A stretch of DNA of 64,000 nucleotides, from NCBI GenBank assembly GCA_027682205.1, contig JAQDAD010000002.1, positions 205,953 through 269,952 on the forward strand, written 5' to 3'. The position numbers were made by a program, and so were the translations under genes. Positions 19,290-25,183 of the stretch are shown here, piece after piece. The first letter of the stretch is position 1. Each line of letters starts with the position of its first letter. A model generated the notes under the pieces. That model saw only the letters and a list, made by a program, of their open reading frames with translations, had not been told where the DNA came from and ran no database searches. This DNA is from Streptococcaceae bacterium AF54-32pH5A. Lineage in GTDB: Bacteria > Bacillota > Bacilli > Lactobacillales > Streptococcaceae.

Positions 19290-19366
19290 GATTGAGTATA
19301 AATAATTCTTATCAAGCTTATAAAATTTTCATATCATAAAGAACATCATCTGAAAACAATGAGTAT

Positions 19367-19416: not shown

Positions 19417-19430
19417 TATAGATATAAAAA

Positions 19431-19469
19431 TTTCCAATCGAGTTGATAGTCAATATATATTGGGAAAAG
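19431..19469 (+). promoter_or_regulatory. Candidate promoter with inverted repeat before the methyltransferase operon
   Basis: TTTCCAAT (19431-19438) and ATTGGGAAA (19459-19467) form an imperfect inverted repeat. TTTCCA as -35, a 17-bp spacer and TATATA (19454-19459) as -10 make a modest promoter inside it. This arrangement suggests a repressor or LysR-type site, but no regulator gene is adjacent. Confidence 0.4.
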
Positions 19470-19518
19470 GGAAAAAGGAGTGGTAAGATGGTTTCAATCC
19501 AAATGGAAGGAGAAGGGT

Positions 19519-20523
19519 ATGGCAAGTAAAAGAGATCTAGTCTTTAGAGCGATTCGAGGCGATGAAGTGGAAAGAGTTCCTGTGGGATTTTGGTTTCATT
19601 TTGTAACACTTGAAGAAAAGGGACAGGGATTAAATAATCCACGTATCTTTCAAAAAAGTGTTGATGGGCATCGCAACTATGTGGAAAGAATTCACCCTGA
19701 TTTTGTCAAAATCATGAGCGACGGTTTTTTCCTTTATCCAAGTAATGTCTACAGTCCTAAGGTTGCAAGCATTCAGGAGCTGGCTTCTATTGAGTCAATT
19801 GGTGAGGGACACCCATGGATTCAGCAACAGGTGGAAGTGGTACAAGCGATTCGAGAGACCTTTACCGAAGAGATTGCTTCTTTCTACAATATCTTTTCAC
19901 CGATCTCCTACCTCAAGCGCTGGTTCCGTACAGAAACTTCTCGAGGAGATAGGGAAGTAGCTGATTTATTGCTTGAAAATCCTGAGCAATTCAGAGCGAT
20001 TCTAGATGTGATTGCAGGAGATATTGCTATCCTAACTCAGAAAATCATCCAGCTAGGTGGAGTCGATGGGATTTACCTCAGCACCCAGGAAATTCAAGAT
20101 GAGCGCATCACACCAGCACTCTACCAAACCTATATCGAACCGAGCAATATAGCGATTTTGGAGGCTGCCAATCAGGTTGGTGGGACCAATATCCTCCATA
20201 TCTGTGGATTTGAAGGTGCGAGCAATGATGTGACGATATTTAAGGATTATCCAGCTCAAGTAGTCAACTGGGCGACCCACCATGAGGATGTTAGTTTGAC
20301 ACAGGGGCAAGAGCTGTTTCCAGGTAAGGCCGTTTTAGGTGGTTTTGAAAATGGTAAGAAAAGCTTGCTTTATCGAGGTTCTAAAGCGGAATTGCAAGAT
20401 GAAACAAGGCGGTTACTGGCTGAAGCTGGTAGTAAAGGAGTTCTTCTGGGAGCTGATTGTACCGTTCCAGATGACTTTGACTTAGAGAGGTTGGACTGGA
20501 TTCGGCAGGCAGCGGTTCTCTAA
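19519..20523 (+). CDS. URO-D superfamily methyltransferase-like protein (MtaA/MtbA type), copy 1
   Basis: A 334-residue protein with the uroporphyrinogen decarboxylase barrel fold. It is not a likely HemE: no haem genes are nearby and streptococci of this group do not make haem. It carries the H-x-C...C zinc motif of methylcobamide:thiol methyltransferases (MtaA/MtbA): His227 and Cys229 in HICGFEG, and Cys314 in LLGADCTVP. Such a site activates a thiol as methyl acceptor. I start it at ATG 19519, with AAGGAG six bases upstream, instead of an earlier in-frame GTG. It heads an operon with a paralogue and an ABC importer. The methyl donor and acceptor are unknown; function is inferred. Confidence 0.75.
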   Translation: MASKRDLVFRAIRGDEVERVPVGFWFHFVTLEEKGQGLNNPRIFQKSVDGHRNYVERIHPDFVKIMSDGFFLYPSNVYSPKVASIQELASIESIGEGHPWIQQQVEVVQAIRETFTEEIASFYNIFSPISYLKRWFRTETSRGDREVADLLLENPEQFRAILDVIAGDIAILTQKIIQLGGVDGIYLSTQEIQDERITPALYQTYIEPSNIAILEAANQVGGTNILHICGFEGASNDVTIFKDYPAQVVNWATHHEDVSLTQGQELFPGKAVLGGFENGKKSLLYRGSKAELQDETRRLLAEAGSKGVLLGADCTVPDDFDLERLDWIRQAAVL

Positions 20524-20535
20524 AAAGGAGGAGCT

Positions 20536-20739
20536 ATGAAAAGTAAAAGGTGGGGCATCTTTATTGTCGTTGTCGGTTTGCTGGCCTTGGTCGCCATAAG
20601 CGTCGTAAAAAATGAGCACTGCAAAAATGGAGAGAGATGTCGTGGAGTTCAGGATTTTTCCAAGTCCAGTCTCCCCTTTCTACGCTCGAATGATATCGCA
20701 AGCAGTTTATTAGTTGAAAAAGTAAGAAATGGAGAATAA
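20536..20739 (+). CDS. Small membrane-anchored protein of unknown function
   Basis: 67 residues: a positively charged start (MKSKRWG), one hydrophobic segment (about residues 8-23, IFIVVVGLLALVAISV) and a hydrophilic tail with two cysteines (EHCKNGERC). A good RBS (AAGGAGGAG) precedes it, so it is probably translated. It sits between the two methyltransferase-like genes. The N-terminus resembles that of the substrate-binding protein encoded downstream, so it could be the remnant of a truncated second binding protein or a real small membrane partner. I do not recognise it. Confidence 0.5.
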   Translation: MKSKRWGIFIVVVGLLALVAISVVKNEHCKNGERCRGVQDFSKSSLPFLRSNDIASSLLVEKVRNGE

Positions 20740-20741
20740 GA

Positions 20742-21740
20742 ATGTCAGAAAAAAGAGAATGGGTTTTAAAAGCATTTAGAGGTGAGAAGGTTGATCGTGT
20801 GCCAGTTGGATTTTGGCACCATTTCACATCAGAAGACGAATGGCTACACGGTTTCTCAAATCCAGCCATTATCGAGAAGAATATTCAAGGCCATAAGCGC
20901 TTTATCAGAGAAGTTAAGCCAGACTTTATCAAGCTCATGAGTGATGGGTACTTTGCTTATCCAAATCCAGTGATTGCCAAAGGAAAATCTCTTCAAGAAT
21001 TGGCGACCATTCAACCACTCGGACCAGAACACCCTTGGATAAAAGAGCAGGTGGACTTGGTTCAGAAAATCAAGCAAGAGTTTACAGAAGATATCGTTGC
21101 GATTTACAATATTTTTGCTCCTGTGACCTATCTCAAGTGGCTGCTTGGGGAAGTGTCTGGCGGGGATGACCTTATTGCGGACTTTCTGGTGGAAGATCCT
21201 GAAGCTCTGAAGAAGGTGTTGGATGTGATTGCAGAAGATATTGCTAGTCTCAGCCGAGCTGTCATCGAAGAGGCTGGTGCAGATGGGATCTATCTCAGCG
21301 TGCAAAGCATCCAAGCTCAACGAGTGTCGGCAGCAGATTATCAAGCTGCCATTGCACCTAGCGAGATAACTATTCTAGAAGCGGCTAGTGCTGTTGGTGG
21401 TGTCACTGTTCTTCATATCTGTGGCTACGAGGGAGCGCGAAATGATATTCATCTTTTTGCAGACTATCCTGCCCAAGTCTTTAACTGGGCTGTAGGACCA
21501 GAGGGAATCACTCTCAAGGAAGGTCGTGAGATTTTCAAGGGACGTACGGTTCTTGGAGGATTCGAAAATGGCAAGACGGGCTTACTGTATACTGGTAGCA
21601 AGGATGCCATTCAGGCTGAGGCAAAGAAACTAGTTGCAGAAGCTGGGAAACAGGGCTTGGTACTTGGTGCAGATTGTACCATTCCAAGTGATATCGCAGT
21701 TGAACGTATCCAGTGGGTGAGAGAAGCGCTTGAAAACTAA
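20742..21740 (+). CDS. URO-D superfamily methyltransferase-like protein (MtaA/MtbA type), copy 2
   Basis: 332 residues, clearly paralogous to the product of 19519-20523: both have VPVGFW near residue 20, a KxMSDG(Y/F)F block near residue 65, and the zinc-type motif, here His225 and Cys227 in HICGYEG and Cys312 in LGADCTIP. Keeping the H-x-C...C ligands in both copies argues that both are active zinc-dependent thiol methyltransferases, not decayed duplicates. Two such proteins may pair, one for each half-reaction, or differ in substrate. It is followed 11 bases later by the substrate-binding protein gene. Function is inferred from the motif and context. Confidence 0.75.
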   Translation: MSEKREWVLKAFRGEKVDRVPVGFWHHFTSEDEWLHGFSNPAIIEKNIQGHKRFIREVKPDFIKLMSDGYFAYPNPVIAKGKSLQELATIQPLGPEHPWIKEQVDLVQKIKQEFTEDIVAIYNIFAPVTYLKWLLGEVSGGDDLIADFLVEDPEALKKVLDVIAEDIASLSRAVIEEAGADGIYLSVQSIQAQRVSAADYQAAIAPSEITILEAASAVGGVTVLHICGYEGARNDIHLFADYPAQVFNWAVGPEGITLKEGREIFKGRTVLGGFENGKTGLLYTGSKDAIQAEAKKLVAEAGKQGLVLGADCTIPSDIAVERIQWVREALEN

Positions 21741-21751
21741 AGGAGAAAAAG

Positions 21752-22630
21752 ATGAGTAAAAAAGCATGGATTATCGGCGGTGTAGCAGTTGTTGCAGTAA
21801 TTGGGGCAACGATTATCGGGAGAAGTTTAGCTGGCGCTCCAGCCAAGGAGGGGGAAACAACTTCATCTGGTGAGGTCATAACCTTGAAGGATGCCCATAC
21901 ACAAAACTATGTACCGTATGACTTTGTCAATGAAAAAGGGGAGTCAGATGGTTATGAAGTAGCTGTTTTGAAGGCTGTTGATGAGAAGTTAGCAAACTAT
22001 CAATTTGAATATACGGGTACCAGTGATGACGACCTTTTGATCGGTCTGGAATCAGGCAAGTATGACATCGGAACCAAGGGAGCTTGGTACACAGATGAAC
22101 GAGCTAAAAAGTTTGTCATTCCATCTGAACCAGTCGGAGCGAGCATTATCGGATTTACTGTCAGAAAAGAAGACGAACAGAAATACAAAACCATTGATGA
22201 CTTTGCCAAGAATAAAGGGAAATTGGTTCCTATCTCTCCACAGAATGCTCAATGGAATGTCATCACAAGCTACAATGAAAAACATCAGGATGCACCAATT
22301 GAGCTAATTGCAGCGGAATCCTTTAAGGTAGCAGATGCCTATGCCTGGGTCTTAGAAGGACGTTATGATGCCTTCTTTGATATCAAACTGTCCTTTGAAA
22401 AAGCAGTTACCGCAGAAGATGGCCCTTACCACCAATATGCGGATAAACTCAGCTGGTTCCCATATAAGGGCATTCCAACTTATCCCTTGATTCACCGTGA
22501 TGAAAAGGGTGAGAAATTTGCTAAAGAATATGAAAAAGCAATCAAAGAGTTGAAAGAAGATGGCACGCTTGCTAAGCTATCTCAGCAATATTTCAAAGAA
22601 GATGTCTTTAGTTACGTAGACAAAGACTAG
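21752..22630 (+). CDS. Amino-acid ABC transporter substrate-binding protein
   Basis: A 292-residue SBP_bac_3 family receptor that delivers a polar amino acid or related compound to the ABC importer encoded next. The N-terminus is a hydrophobic anchor (about residues 5-28) with no lipobox cysteine, so it is probably tethered by this segment. The binding domain has VNEKGESDGYEVAVLKAVDE (about 69-88) and KYDIGTKGAWYTDERAKKF (about 107-125). Gene order binding protein-permease-permease-ATPase resembles TcyJKLMN of Bacillus, which takes up cystine, cystathionine and S-methylcysteine. That relation is inferred; ligand unproven. Confidence 0.82.
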   Translation: MSKKAWIIGGVAVVAVIGATIIGRSLAGAPAKEGETTSSGEVITLKDAHTQNYVPYDFVNEKGESDGYEVAVLKAVDEKLANYQFEYTGTSDDDLLIGLESGKYDIGTKGAWYTDERAKKFVIPSEPVGASIIGFTVRKEDEQKYKTIDDFAKNKGKLVPISPQNAQWNVITSYNEKHQDAPIELIAAESFKVADAYAWVLEGRYDAFFDIKLSFEKAVTAEDGPYHQYADKLSWFPYKGIPTYPLIHRDEKGEKFAKEYEKAIKELKEDGTLAKLSQQYFKEDVFSYVDKD

Positions 22631-22662
22631 ACCAGAAATTCCAAGACTAGAAAGGGTTTTGC

Positions 22663-23355
22663 ATGGTTTCTTATGATTTTTCCAAGGTCTTTCAGTTTTT
22701 GCCGACCTTATTGCAGGCACTTCCTATGACCTTGTCCATTCTCTTTTTTACCACTCTTCTTGGTTCCCTTTTTGGAGGTCTCTTGGCCTGGGCGCAAGTA
22801 GGAGAAGACAAGAGTTTTGCAGCAATTTCCAAAGGTTATATTTTTACCCTTCGTTGTACACCGCCGATTGTCTTGCTTTTTCTAGTTTTTTATGGCTTGC
22901 CAGAATTTCTGAAATGGTGGCTGGGTTTGGATATCAACAACTGGTCTAAAACTATTTTTGTTCTCCTGACGATGATTCTCTTGTTTGCAGCTATTGTTGC
23001 TGAGGTTTTCAAGGCAGCCTATCAAGCTATTCCAAAGGGGCAGACAGAGGCCGGGCTTAGTATTGGTTTGACTCCAAGTCAGACCTTTTGGAGAATCATT
23101 TTTCCCCAAGCTTTTCAGGTTGCTCTTCCCAATATAACGACCGCTATTCTCAATCTCATGCGGGATGCTGCCTTGGCCTATACGATTGGTTTCGTTGATG
23201 TTATGGGGGCAGGCAATCTCTTAATCAGTCGCAATTTAGGAAACTACTCACTGGAAACCTATACGGCAGTTGCGCTTCTTTACTGGGGGATTGCTTTGGT
23301 TATTTCTAGCTTGAGCCGTTTGCTTGAGAAGTCTTTGGAAACAAAAGGGAGGTAA
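22663..23355 (+). CDS. Amino-acid ABC transporter permease (TcyL-like)
   Basis: A 230-residue His/Glu/Gln/Arg-type permease with about five membrane segments. The EAA loop that docks to the ATPase is visible as AIPKGQTEAGLSIGLTPSQTF (residues about 126-146), followed by FRIIFPQAF-like sequence (WRIIFPQAFQVALPN). It starts 32 bases after the binding protein gene, with RBS AGAAAGGG. The second permease starts 3 bases after its stop, so the two are translationally coupled and likely form a heterodimer in the membrane. Confidence 0.85.
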   Translation: MVSYDFSKVFQFLPTLLQALPMTLSILFFTTLLGSLFGGLLAWAQVGEDKSFAAISKGYIFTLRCTPPIVLLFLVFYGLPEFLKWWLGLDINNWSKTIFVLLTMILLFAAIVAEVFKAAYQAIPKGQTEAGLSIGLTPSQTFWRIIFPQAFQVALPNITTAILNLMRDAALAYTIGFVDVMGAGNLLISRNLGNYSLETYTAVALLYWGIALVISSLSRLLEKSLETKGR

Positions 23356-23358
23356 GAA

Positions 23359-24081
23359 ATGGACATAGACTATATTGTAAAGACCTTTCTGGAGACCTTG
23401 AAGGGTGTGCCAATCACCTTGATTATCATGATTGTGGCTATGGTCTTAAGCTTTTTACCAGCTCTATTTTTGGCCTTGGGGCAGATTTACAAGGTTCGAG
23501 GGGTGAGGAGTTTTTCTCTGGTCTATCTGGCTTTTATCCGAGCGACTCCTCCGATTTTATTGATTCTCTTCTTTTATAGTTTGTTTCCAAGTTTACTGAA
23601 TCAATTTCTCAAAAGCATAGGAAGTGACTTTGATATTTTCAAGCTTGATCCTCTCTATTATGCCTTTATCATTTATAGTTTGATGACAGTCGGGAGTTTG
23701 TCGGAGATTTTGCGTTCAGCTATCTTGACGGTGGACAAGGGACAACTAGAGGCGGCGCATGCGATTGGCTTGACCACGATACAAGCCTATCTAAGGATTG
23801 TTTTTCCTCAAGCCCTGCGCTCAGCTTTGCCTAACTTGGCCAATCTGGTGATCAATATCGTCAAAGGGACTTCTCTGGTCTTTGTCATGACTATCAAGGA
23901 TATTACTGCGATTGCCCGTGTAGAAGCGTCCTACGGTTACCAGTATTTTGAGTCTTATTTTGTGATCTTTTTGCAGTATATTTTGATCTGTGGTTTGATT
24001 CAGTGGGGCTTCTCCCTACTGGAGAAAGGCTATGTAAAAAAAGAAAAGAGAGCAAAAGCATCTAGCGCGCGTTTTGTATAG
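23359..24081 (+). CDS. Amino-acid ABC transporter permease (TcyM-like)
   Basis: A 240-residue partner permease with about five membrane segments, EAA loop VDKGQLEAAHAIGLTTIQAY (about residues 126-145) and the following YLRIVFPQALRSALPN. RBS GGGAGG (23348-23353) lies within the end of the previous permease gene. The basic C-terminal tail (KKEKRAKASSARF) is probably cytoplasmic. The ATPase gene follows after nine bases. Confidence 0.85.
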   Translation: MDIDYIVKTFLETLKGVPITLIIMIVAMVLSFLPALFLALGQIYKVRGVRSFSLVYLAFIRATPPILLILFFYSLFPSLLNQFLKSIGSDFDIFKLDPLYYAFIIYSLMTVGSLSEILRSAILTVDKGQLEAAHAIGLTTIQAYLRIVFPQALRSALPNLANLVINIVKGTSLVFVMTIKDITAIARVEASYGYQYFESYFVIFLQYILICGLIQWGFSLLEKGYVKKEKRAKASSARFV

Positions 24082-24090
24082 GAGGACAGG

Positions 24091-24855
24091 ATGTTACAAG
24101 TAGAACATATCGCAAAAACATTTGGTGAGAGGCAGGTACTAGAGGATGTCAATCTCCAGGTCAACCAAGGGGATGTCGTCGTTATTCTAGGACCATCAGG
24201 TTCAGGGAAAACGACCTTTCTCCGTTGTCTCAACCACTTAGAAAAAGCTGACAGTGGCCGTTTGACCTTGGCAGGAAAGACCTATGACTTAGCCAAATTA
24301 AGCAAGAAAGACATTCTAGAAATTCGCAAAAAAACAGCCTTTGTTTTCCAACACTACAATCTCTTTGCAAATAAAACTGCTCTGGAAAATATTCTAGAAG
24401 GCCTAATCGTCGCTCGTAAAGTTCCCAAGGAAGAAGCGCTCAAACGTGCAGAATCTGCCTTAGAAAAAGTTGGTTTACTGGCCTATAAGGACTACTACCC
24501 TTCTCAGCTATCTGGAGGACAACAACAACGAATAGGAATTGCGCGTGCCATTGCCGTCAAGCCCGAGGTCATTTTGCTAGATGAACCAACATCGGCACTA
24601 GACCCTGAGTTGGTTGGAGATGTTTTGGATGTTCTGAAACAGTTGGCGGGAGAAGGTGTGACCATGGTGGTCGTCACGCATGAGATGGGATTTGCTAGGG
24701 ATGTCGCTAACCACGTTATTTTCATGGATGGAGGCCGTATCGTAGAGGAGAACAATCCCCACGATTTCTTTAGTCGTCCACAGGAAGAACGAACCAAGCA
24801 GTTCCTAGCTCGTATCTTATCAGATGCTAGCTATAGTGTAGAATACATGATTTGA
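24091..24855 (+). CDS. Amino-acid ABC transporter ATP-binding protein (TcyN-like)
   Basis: The 254-residue ATPase powers the importer. All motifs are intact: Walker [10 protein letters not shown] (residues 34-42), Q-loop VFQHYN (about 86-91), signature LSGGQQQR (about 143-150), Walker B VILLDEP (about 164-170) and the switch His in VTHEMG (about 200-205). The sequence [14 protein letters not shown] after Walker A is typical of polar amino-acid importers. It is the last gene of the operon that begins with the two methyltransferase-like genes, so import and methyl transfer are likely linked. Confidence 0.88.
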
Positions 24856-25084: not shown

Positions 25085-25090
25085 AAGCTC

Positions 25091-25183
25091 ATAAGTTAAG
25101 AAGAACTTAACTTAAACTCCTAAAACTTTTTCATAATAATCTCCCTATAAAATAAAGTCGCCCAATCAGGCGGCTTATTTTTT
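25091..25183 (+). ncRNA. ccnD: CiaR-controlled small RNA csRNA (ccnD-like)
   Basis: About 93 bases upstream of uppS, ending in GTCGCC (25157-25162) paired with GGCGGC (25169-25174) and a T-rich tail. It shares the terminator design, the TCATAATAATCTCC patch and the promoter with the other csRNAs, but its 5' part differs: TAAGTTAAGAAGAACTTAA (25091 region) folds into its own small hairpin. Placement before uppS matches ccnD as I recall it. The 195 bases between the ABC ATPase gene and this promoter hold nothing I can identify. Confidence 0.86.

Follow-up and report, generated by a model that had tools for sequence, protein, structure and literature searches.

Within the 64,000-nucleotide stretch of contig JAQDAD010000002.1 from Streptococcaceae bacterium AF54-32pH5A analysed here (the window), seven open reading frames (ORFs) spaced by 2 to 32 bp form an operon that encodes two proteins of the uroporphyrinogen decarboxylase (URO-D) fold, termed U1 and U2, a small protein, and an ATP-binding cassette (ABC) importer comprising a solute-binding protein (SBP), two permeases and an ATPase (Table 1). 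With confidence and doubt about evenly balanced, we read this as a cysteine-regulated sulfur-scavenging operon whose zinc enzymes would act without a corrinoid on the thiol chemistry of the import. The parts of this reading differ in strength: sulfur import under cysteine-type control is likely, corrinoid-free catalysis on a thiol could equally be right or wrong, and methyl transfer from the imported compound is improbable. The computations show gene content, motif, fold, conservation, operator-like sites, neighbouring lyase genes and the lack of a corrinoid domain in Streptococcus; zinc binding, substrate, transport direction and reaction are inferred.

Operator-like sites upstream of the operon

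At mitis, sanguinis, cristatus and DD10 loci, the region upstream of the operon contains a conserved block of the form KATAAA-N7-WATC-N4-TGATA with an ATATATT-like stretch after it. The motif taken from this block has 2 matches in the window at no more than one mismatch, against 0.02 expected; because the motif was derived at the operon, matches there are not independent, and it is recurrence elsewhere that provides independent evidence. Exact matches in seven genomes numbered 14, compared to 1 for the reversed pattern. The operon accounts for eight of these; the remaining six precede cysK (three) or a permease pair (three), corresponding to two orthologous sites in three genomes. The cysK protein at L141 exceeds its curated cut-off (429 versus 351), and the other cysK products are near-identical to it by eye. 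At one mismatch, eight genomes gave 31 matches compared to 8 for the control (24 of the 31 were examined, six more are places already seen and one was left), and 18 could be assigned: 8 to the operon, 5 to cysK, 3 to the permease pair, 1 to gshT (top solved match 4eq9, GshT, E 1.3e-103) and 1 to a metB/CGL-type gene that scores below cut-off. In genome G004 the cysK site is present and U2 is absent.

The published, mutation-tested operator of the pneumococcal regulator CmbR, as given in the excerpts available of that literature, is GYGATAAAAAWWAYTTATMAC, whose ATAAA-N7-TATM core corresponds, by eye, to the opening half of the operon-derived motif. Scanning the window with the CmbR consensus returned a single best site (17 of 21 positions, minus strand, 19315-19295), located 5′ of the operon, followed by seven sites at 16/21, one of which is also upstream of the operon. 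Furthermore, in 13 of 18 Streptococcus loci, which are not independent of one another, the 250 bp upstream of the operon outscore every other gene-upstream stretch of the locus, and in 11 of the 18 this score is reached by at most 5% of shuffles. These stretches were measured from the start chosen by the ORF caller (an upstream GTG for some loci), and L092 contributes 3,993 bases and two other genes for comparison. The operon therefore carries, as a consensus match and predicted site, the upstream operator that would mark a member of the CmbR/CysR regulon, which suggests that it may be switched by cysteine supply. The same excerpts describe CmbR as a repressor of its targets in pneumococcus, and CysR and HomR as activators in S. 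mutans.

Two URO-D-fold proteins with a predicted zinc site

U1 and U2 are paralogues (52% identity) that match PF01208 with scores of 59.8 and 84.6 bits (cut-off 23.9), and the His-x-Cys...Cys motif claimed for both in a preceding sequence-only reading was verified at the exact residues (Table 1; U1 is numbered from ATG 19519). Of 15 aligned homologues, 14 have this motif of predicted zinc ligands and the distant L070 protein has His-x-His; the motif also aligns with that of the coenzyme M (CoM) methyltransferase 4ay7. The predicted structure of U2 (pLDDT 92) is a single barrel that matches UroD, 4ay7 and the barrel of the cobalamin-independent methionine synthase MetE, in comparisons that report listed families only, such that absence from the listing excludes nothing. 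Pocket residues outside the zinc motif also vary little or not at all (W25, H27, D61, K64, S67, D68, Q188, N248 and W249), which suggests catalysis or specific ligand binding.

The likeness to the methylcobalamin:CoM methyltransferases MtaA and MtbA that had been proposed from sequence stands for the zinc motif and fails for membership, as the curated NCBIfam cut-offs for MtaA/CmuA and MtbA are missed by a wide margin (U2, 43.3 versus 244 and 36.7 versus 235.4 bits; U1, 31.8 versus 244 bits). NCBIfam lists neither a UroD model nor a MetE model (TIGR01371) among the matches of U1 and U2, and hhalign of U2 against MetE on shallow profiles gave no detectable sequence match. Both proteins look like uroporphyrinogen decarboxylase by Pfam family, and U2 does so by modelled fold. 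U1 and U2 are probably zinc-dependent thiol enzymes.

An importer nearest to cystine systems

The Tcy-like importer that the sequence-only reading placed beside the URO-D genes is borne out by both Pfam families and nearest models: it comprises a family-3 SBP, two PAAT permeases and an ATPase closest to cystine systems. For the SBP, permease 1 and ATPase the best NCBIfam models are cystine models, and for permease 2 HisM and cystine models tie. Because all matches fall under equivalog cut-offs, the models do not assign the ligand. By profile and fold, the SBP is closest to YtmK (TcyK), Lmo2349 and GshT. In the five Streptococcus loci checked, it has an N-terminal hydrophobic anchor and no lipobox cysteine, a residue present in the relatives from L066, L067, L069 and L111. 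S. oralis DD15 (L043:9046-10832) and DD16 (L044) carry two tandem SBP genes after U2, with 69% and 91-92% identity to the window SBP.

Neighbouring genes in other lineages bear on the substrate. At the Phascolarctobacterium loci L067 and L068, two genes come after that of the ATPase: one for a Cys_Met_Meta_PP enzyme, whose best model is cystathionine gamma-lyase/homocysteine desulfhydrase (470 versus a cut-off of 594), and one for a PatB-family C-S lyase that exceeds its cut-off (475 versus 340). The same lyase pair stands divergent from the operon in G857 and G719 (51-53% identity). These lyase neighbours, together with the operator sites and the regulation they imply, strengthen the sulfur reading, and the import substrate is probably a sulfur-containing amino acid. 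The earlier proposal of a methylated sulfur or amino compound thus holds in outline for the sulfur amino acid, to which operators, lyases and SBP kinship all point; nothing found shows the methyl part.

Conservation, distribution and duplication

The pairing of URO-D gene and importer, for which conservation in relatives had been proposed as a check, holds at 42 of 47 loci, where a URO-D gene, an SBP, two permeases and an ATPase occur together, beyond what chance would give. No importer of this type stands beside the URO-D gene in three Bifidobacterium loci (L074, L075 and L077) and a Clostridia metagenome-assembled genome (L076), and L072 was left unresolved by the ORF caller. The caller picks the longest ORF, and some genes are hidden behind antisense ORFs (L072, L109 and L110); the gene content of L109 and L110 was settled by tblastn. 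A cysteine desulfidase label for the PF03313 gene beside the Clostridia homologue (L076) was rejected, as NCBIfam gives it no name.

The window matches Streptococcus oralis, its U2 being 95-98% identical in five of seven S. oralis contigs and 77% in the remaining two (DD15 and DD16). U2 was found in 58 of 147 Streptococcus genomes sampled (E up to 1e-10). A full-length second URO-D copy accompanies it in 33 of the 58 (the G032 copy contains a stop codon), or in 34 if the fragment in G139 is included. Loci with one URO-D gene and the importer occur in streptococci, in other Lactobacillales, in Anaerobium and Phascolarctobacterium, and elsewhere in the Bacillota, with Trichococcus and Sedimentibacter among the further carriers outside Streptococcus. 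The distribution is patchy both in the order (29 of 295 genomes, E up to 1e-30) and in the phylum (6 of 398, E up to 1e-40, Phascolarctobacterium query). In the mitis, sanguinis and DD10 loci, the U1 proteins and the U2 proteins fall into separate supported clades, so the gene was duplicated before these groups diverged from one another.

Each of the 23 loci in L031-L064 that carry U1 has an ORF of 66-99 aa between the two URO-D genes. The 67-aa version diverges fast (27 of 67 residues differ between S. oralis and S. mitis, with 21, 16 and 37 nucleotide changes at the three codon positions) and retains both length and an NDIA..LL-like end. In Trichococcus (L069:10171-11337) and Sedimentibacter (L070:10162-11334), the importer is adjoined by a further, distant URO-D protein with 25-27% identity to U2, and in G027 (L121:7413-11831) the ATPase gene precedes U2 instead of ending the operon.

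Corrinoid domains, MetE and PF02574 in Streptococcus genomes

Gene content agrees with the earlier observation that the operon encodes no corrinoid protein. The corrinoid-binding domain PF02310 exceeded cut-off in none of the 147 genomes of a search confined to Streptococcus (three matches fell below it), compared to 12 of 14 control genomes, so a corrinoid partner encoded elsewhere in the genome, as had been allowed for, is very unlikely in this genus. At superfamily level, the added claim that corrinoid-free transfer would be new for the family goes too far: MetE moves a methyl group without a corrinoid, and epoxide:CoM transferase, another member of the URO-D superfamily, is corrinoid-free too.

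MetE, encoded away from the operon in carriers, exceeded cut-off in 56 of 58 U2-bearing and 67 of 89 U2-less Streptococcus genomes, on which ground we rejected the operon as a simple MetE replacement. Replacement of MmuM was likewise rejected, as PF02574, the corrinoid-free homocysteine S-methyltransferase family, shows no anti-correlation with U2 (33 of 58 genomes with it, 27 of 89 without).

Proposed mechanism and alternatives

In the explanation we favour, a cysteine-responsive LysR regulator of CmbR/CysR type would control a sulfur-scavenging operon of oral streptococci, whose SBP, permeases and ATPase would import a sulfur amino acid or small conjugate of the cystine, cystathionine or glutathione kind. 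U1 and U2 would each hold zinc through one histidine and two cysteines, and this zinc would activate a thiol, namely cysteine or homocysteine, either free or made from the import. The ensuing corrinoid-free thiol chemistry, most likely an alkyl transfer between thiols, would free usable cysteine or homocysteine. A more specific version, which we hold to be rather unlikely, is that these proteins belong to an importer-coupled family of corrinoid-free, single-barrel zinc thiol-alkyltransferases scattered across Bacillota. Under cysteine starvation, such enzymes would take the alkyl group off an S-alkyl conjugate of cysteine or homocysteine that the cell has imported and pass it to another thiol; S-methylcysteine and homocysteine, for example, would yield cysteine and methionine. 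To our knowledge, the thiol-methylating members of the URO-D superfamily use corrinoids, apart from MetE and epoxide:CoM transferase. A conserved member that is coupled to an importer and coregulated with cysteine genes, in streptococci that have no corrinoid domains, would represent a new route to recover sulfur amino acids. A protein whose database name comes from a haem enzyme would thereby acquire a role.

Several observations weigh against the favoured explanation. No sulfur gene could be assigned to 13 of the 31 one-mismatch matches to the operon-derived motif (one of the 13 is near another permease), G039 has the operon genes yet no match to this motif, and operator enrichment upstream was seen in none of 11 non-streptococcal loci. 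The lyase pair is absent in G814 and G591, and the context is not uniform: in Trichococcus the neighbours are a peptide-binding protein, an oxidoreductase and the further, distant URO-D protein, and peptide-binding proteins also occur in Bifidobacterium, where one locus has a peptide transporter. Structurally, UroD and 4ay7 tie in the fold ranking for U2, and by position the fourth zinc ligand of MetE (Glu642) has no evident counterpart in U2, whose strand 6 ends in N248-W249.

Among the alternatives, U1 and U2 might be zinc-thiol proteins that hold, reduce or sense an imported thiol or disulfide, for instance as a cytosolic acceptor, rather than methyl- or alkyltransferases. The URO-D gene adjoining the importer wherever that importer is present (the 42 of 47 loci), the sulfur regulation and the want of a donor or partner gene common to all lineages would suit such a role; the near-invariant pocket residues beyond the zinc motif and the retention of the duplicates as separate clades argue against it, and we consider it rather unlikely. 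The importer might instead take in a methylated compound (S-methylcysteine, S-methylmethionine or one of betaine type), with U1 and U2 methylating homocysteine directly to methionine. This is unlikely in our view, given that no methyl-specific neighbour was found, that nearly all carriers already have MetE and many also PF02574, and that by general chemistry a thioether that is not activated donates its methyl group poorly in the absence of a corrinoid. It does draw on the structural match of U2 to MetE and the CoM methyltransferase, on operators that would suit cysteine release from S-methylcysteine, and on the reading by Kountz and Balskus (PMC10418091) of the His-Cys-Cys set as specific to S- or Se-methyltransferases.

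Two further possibilities have very little in their favour. A corrinoid-dependent methyltransferase using scavenged cobalamin or a corrinoid protein from elsewhere would fit the distant kinship with MtaA and MtbA and is highly improbable considering the PF02310 result, a domain search that covers Streptococcus. Least probable, to the point of near-dismissal, is a true uroporphyrinogen decarboxylase, as the database names, family and fold would have it: the cysteine-type operators and the importer speak against it, no haem gene was noticed in the loci read (no search aimed at haem genes was made), and U1 and U2 carry the His-Cys-Cys set, whereas UroD is no metalloenzyme.

Relation to known systems

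In the excerpts consulted, S. mutans tcyDEFGH are five HomR-activated genes called cysteine transport genes (PMC5131005, PMC10233336), and SMU.932-936 are termed amino-acid (ABC) transporters (PMC10900908, PMC11921374, PMC6952196), with single members mentioned in PMC12625713 and PMC12815764. The two are probably identical, with the URO-D gene as first gene and the whole as the core of the present operon, so the operon is probably not wholly new in print, its S. mutans counterpart being known as an amino-acid or cysteine transporter. Those passages on SMU.932-936 and tcyDEFGH contain no mention of a URO-D protein. The literature searched, in which much subscription content and notably the first report on S. 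mutans HomR could not be covered, assigns no function to the URO-D protein. Should the identity with SMU.932 hold, the proposed enzyme role would also account for the one gene that is not a transporter component in an operon that S. mutans expression work repeatedly lists as an amino-acid ABC transporter. Mutans-like loci carry U2, SBP, both permeases and ATPase with a divergent LysR gene; the window operon differs from them in its extra URO-D copy, its small ORF and the lack of an adjacent LysR gene.

Type 1 mlp clusters (Kountz and Balskus preprint, PMC10418091) similarly have URO-D-superfamily proteins, often several, with the His-Cys-Cys set and sulfur genes nearby. According to that text, all genera with such clusters are obligate anaerobes, and the clusters include genes for a RACE protein and for a corrinoid protein. 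The window operon has neither gene (RACE being judged from gene content, with no model search), and streptococci go without mention there. To MtaA/MtbA-type enzymes such as 4ay7 the identity is 20%, and U1 and U2 fall far under the curated cut-offs and lack a corrinoid partner. MetE is a two-barrel protein, unlike U2, a single barrel of 332 aa, in which by positional inference Asp577 of MetE, like Glu642, has no evident counterpart.

Gene layout and minor observations

The operon is flanked by glmS on one side and the csRNA1/uppS region on the other. The ORF list starts U1 at GTG 19480; ATG 19519 is the likelier start because it is preceded by GGAGAAGGG and the GTG lies within the stretch conserved 5′ of the gene. 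An Rfam scan of 14-30 kb returned csRNA1, downstream of the operon, as sole match and no other RNA control element. A plasmid origin was rejected, the one plasmid record covering 1% of the query.

Table 1 Features of the operon and its surroundings, in window coordinates
Feature	Position	Strand	Remarks
CmbR-operator match	19295..19315	-	17/21 to published pneumococcal consensus; top site of window
Match to operon-derived motif, one mismatch	19297-19322		Overlaps the CmbR-operator match at 19295..19315
Upstream motif KATAAA-N7-WATC-N4-TGATA	19423..19448	+	Conserved; conserved ATATATT stretch then follows
U1, URO-D-fold protein, 334 aa	19519..20523	+	PF01208; H227-x-C229...C314
Small ORF, 67 aa	20536..20739	+	Separates the two URO-D genes; N-terminal stretch hydrophobic
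U2, URO-D-fold protein, 332 aa	20742..21740	+	PF01208; H225-x-C227...C312
Family-3 SBP, 292 aa	21752..22630	+	SBP_bac_3, PF00497; no lipobox cysteine
ABC permease 1, 230 aa	22663..23355	+	BPD_transp_1, PF00528
ABC permease 2, 240 aa	23359..24081	+	BPD_transp_1, PF00528
ABC ATPase, 254 aa	24091..24855	+	ABC_tran, PF00005; top model TcyN, 312 bits versus cut-off 406
csRNA1, Cia-dependent small RNA	25090-25180		Rfam 69.7 bits, cut-off 57; directly 3′ of operon

The divergent LysR gene was identified by eye in mutans-like loci L061-L064 and occurs in four further genomes (64-66% identity to the L061 protein); none was seen in G024 and G027. Beyond it, a small (p)ppGpp synthase-like gene and a two-component system were noted by eye (L061-L064, L119 and L127), which we take to resemble RelPRS. 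In G814 (L111:2430-4975) and G591 (L112:3144-4871), genes that by eye resemble those for a Fur-type regulator and an ABC system for zinc uptake sit within several kilobases of the operon. Lastly, at L109:4607-5341, L115:12253-13029, L117:12142-12912 and L118:9452-10222, the gene after that of the ATPase encodes a short-chain dehydrogenase (confirmed by Pfam for L109 and L118), a very common family whose presence may be due to chance.

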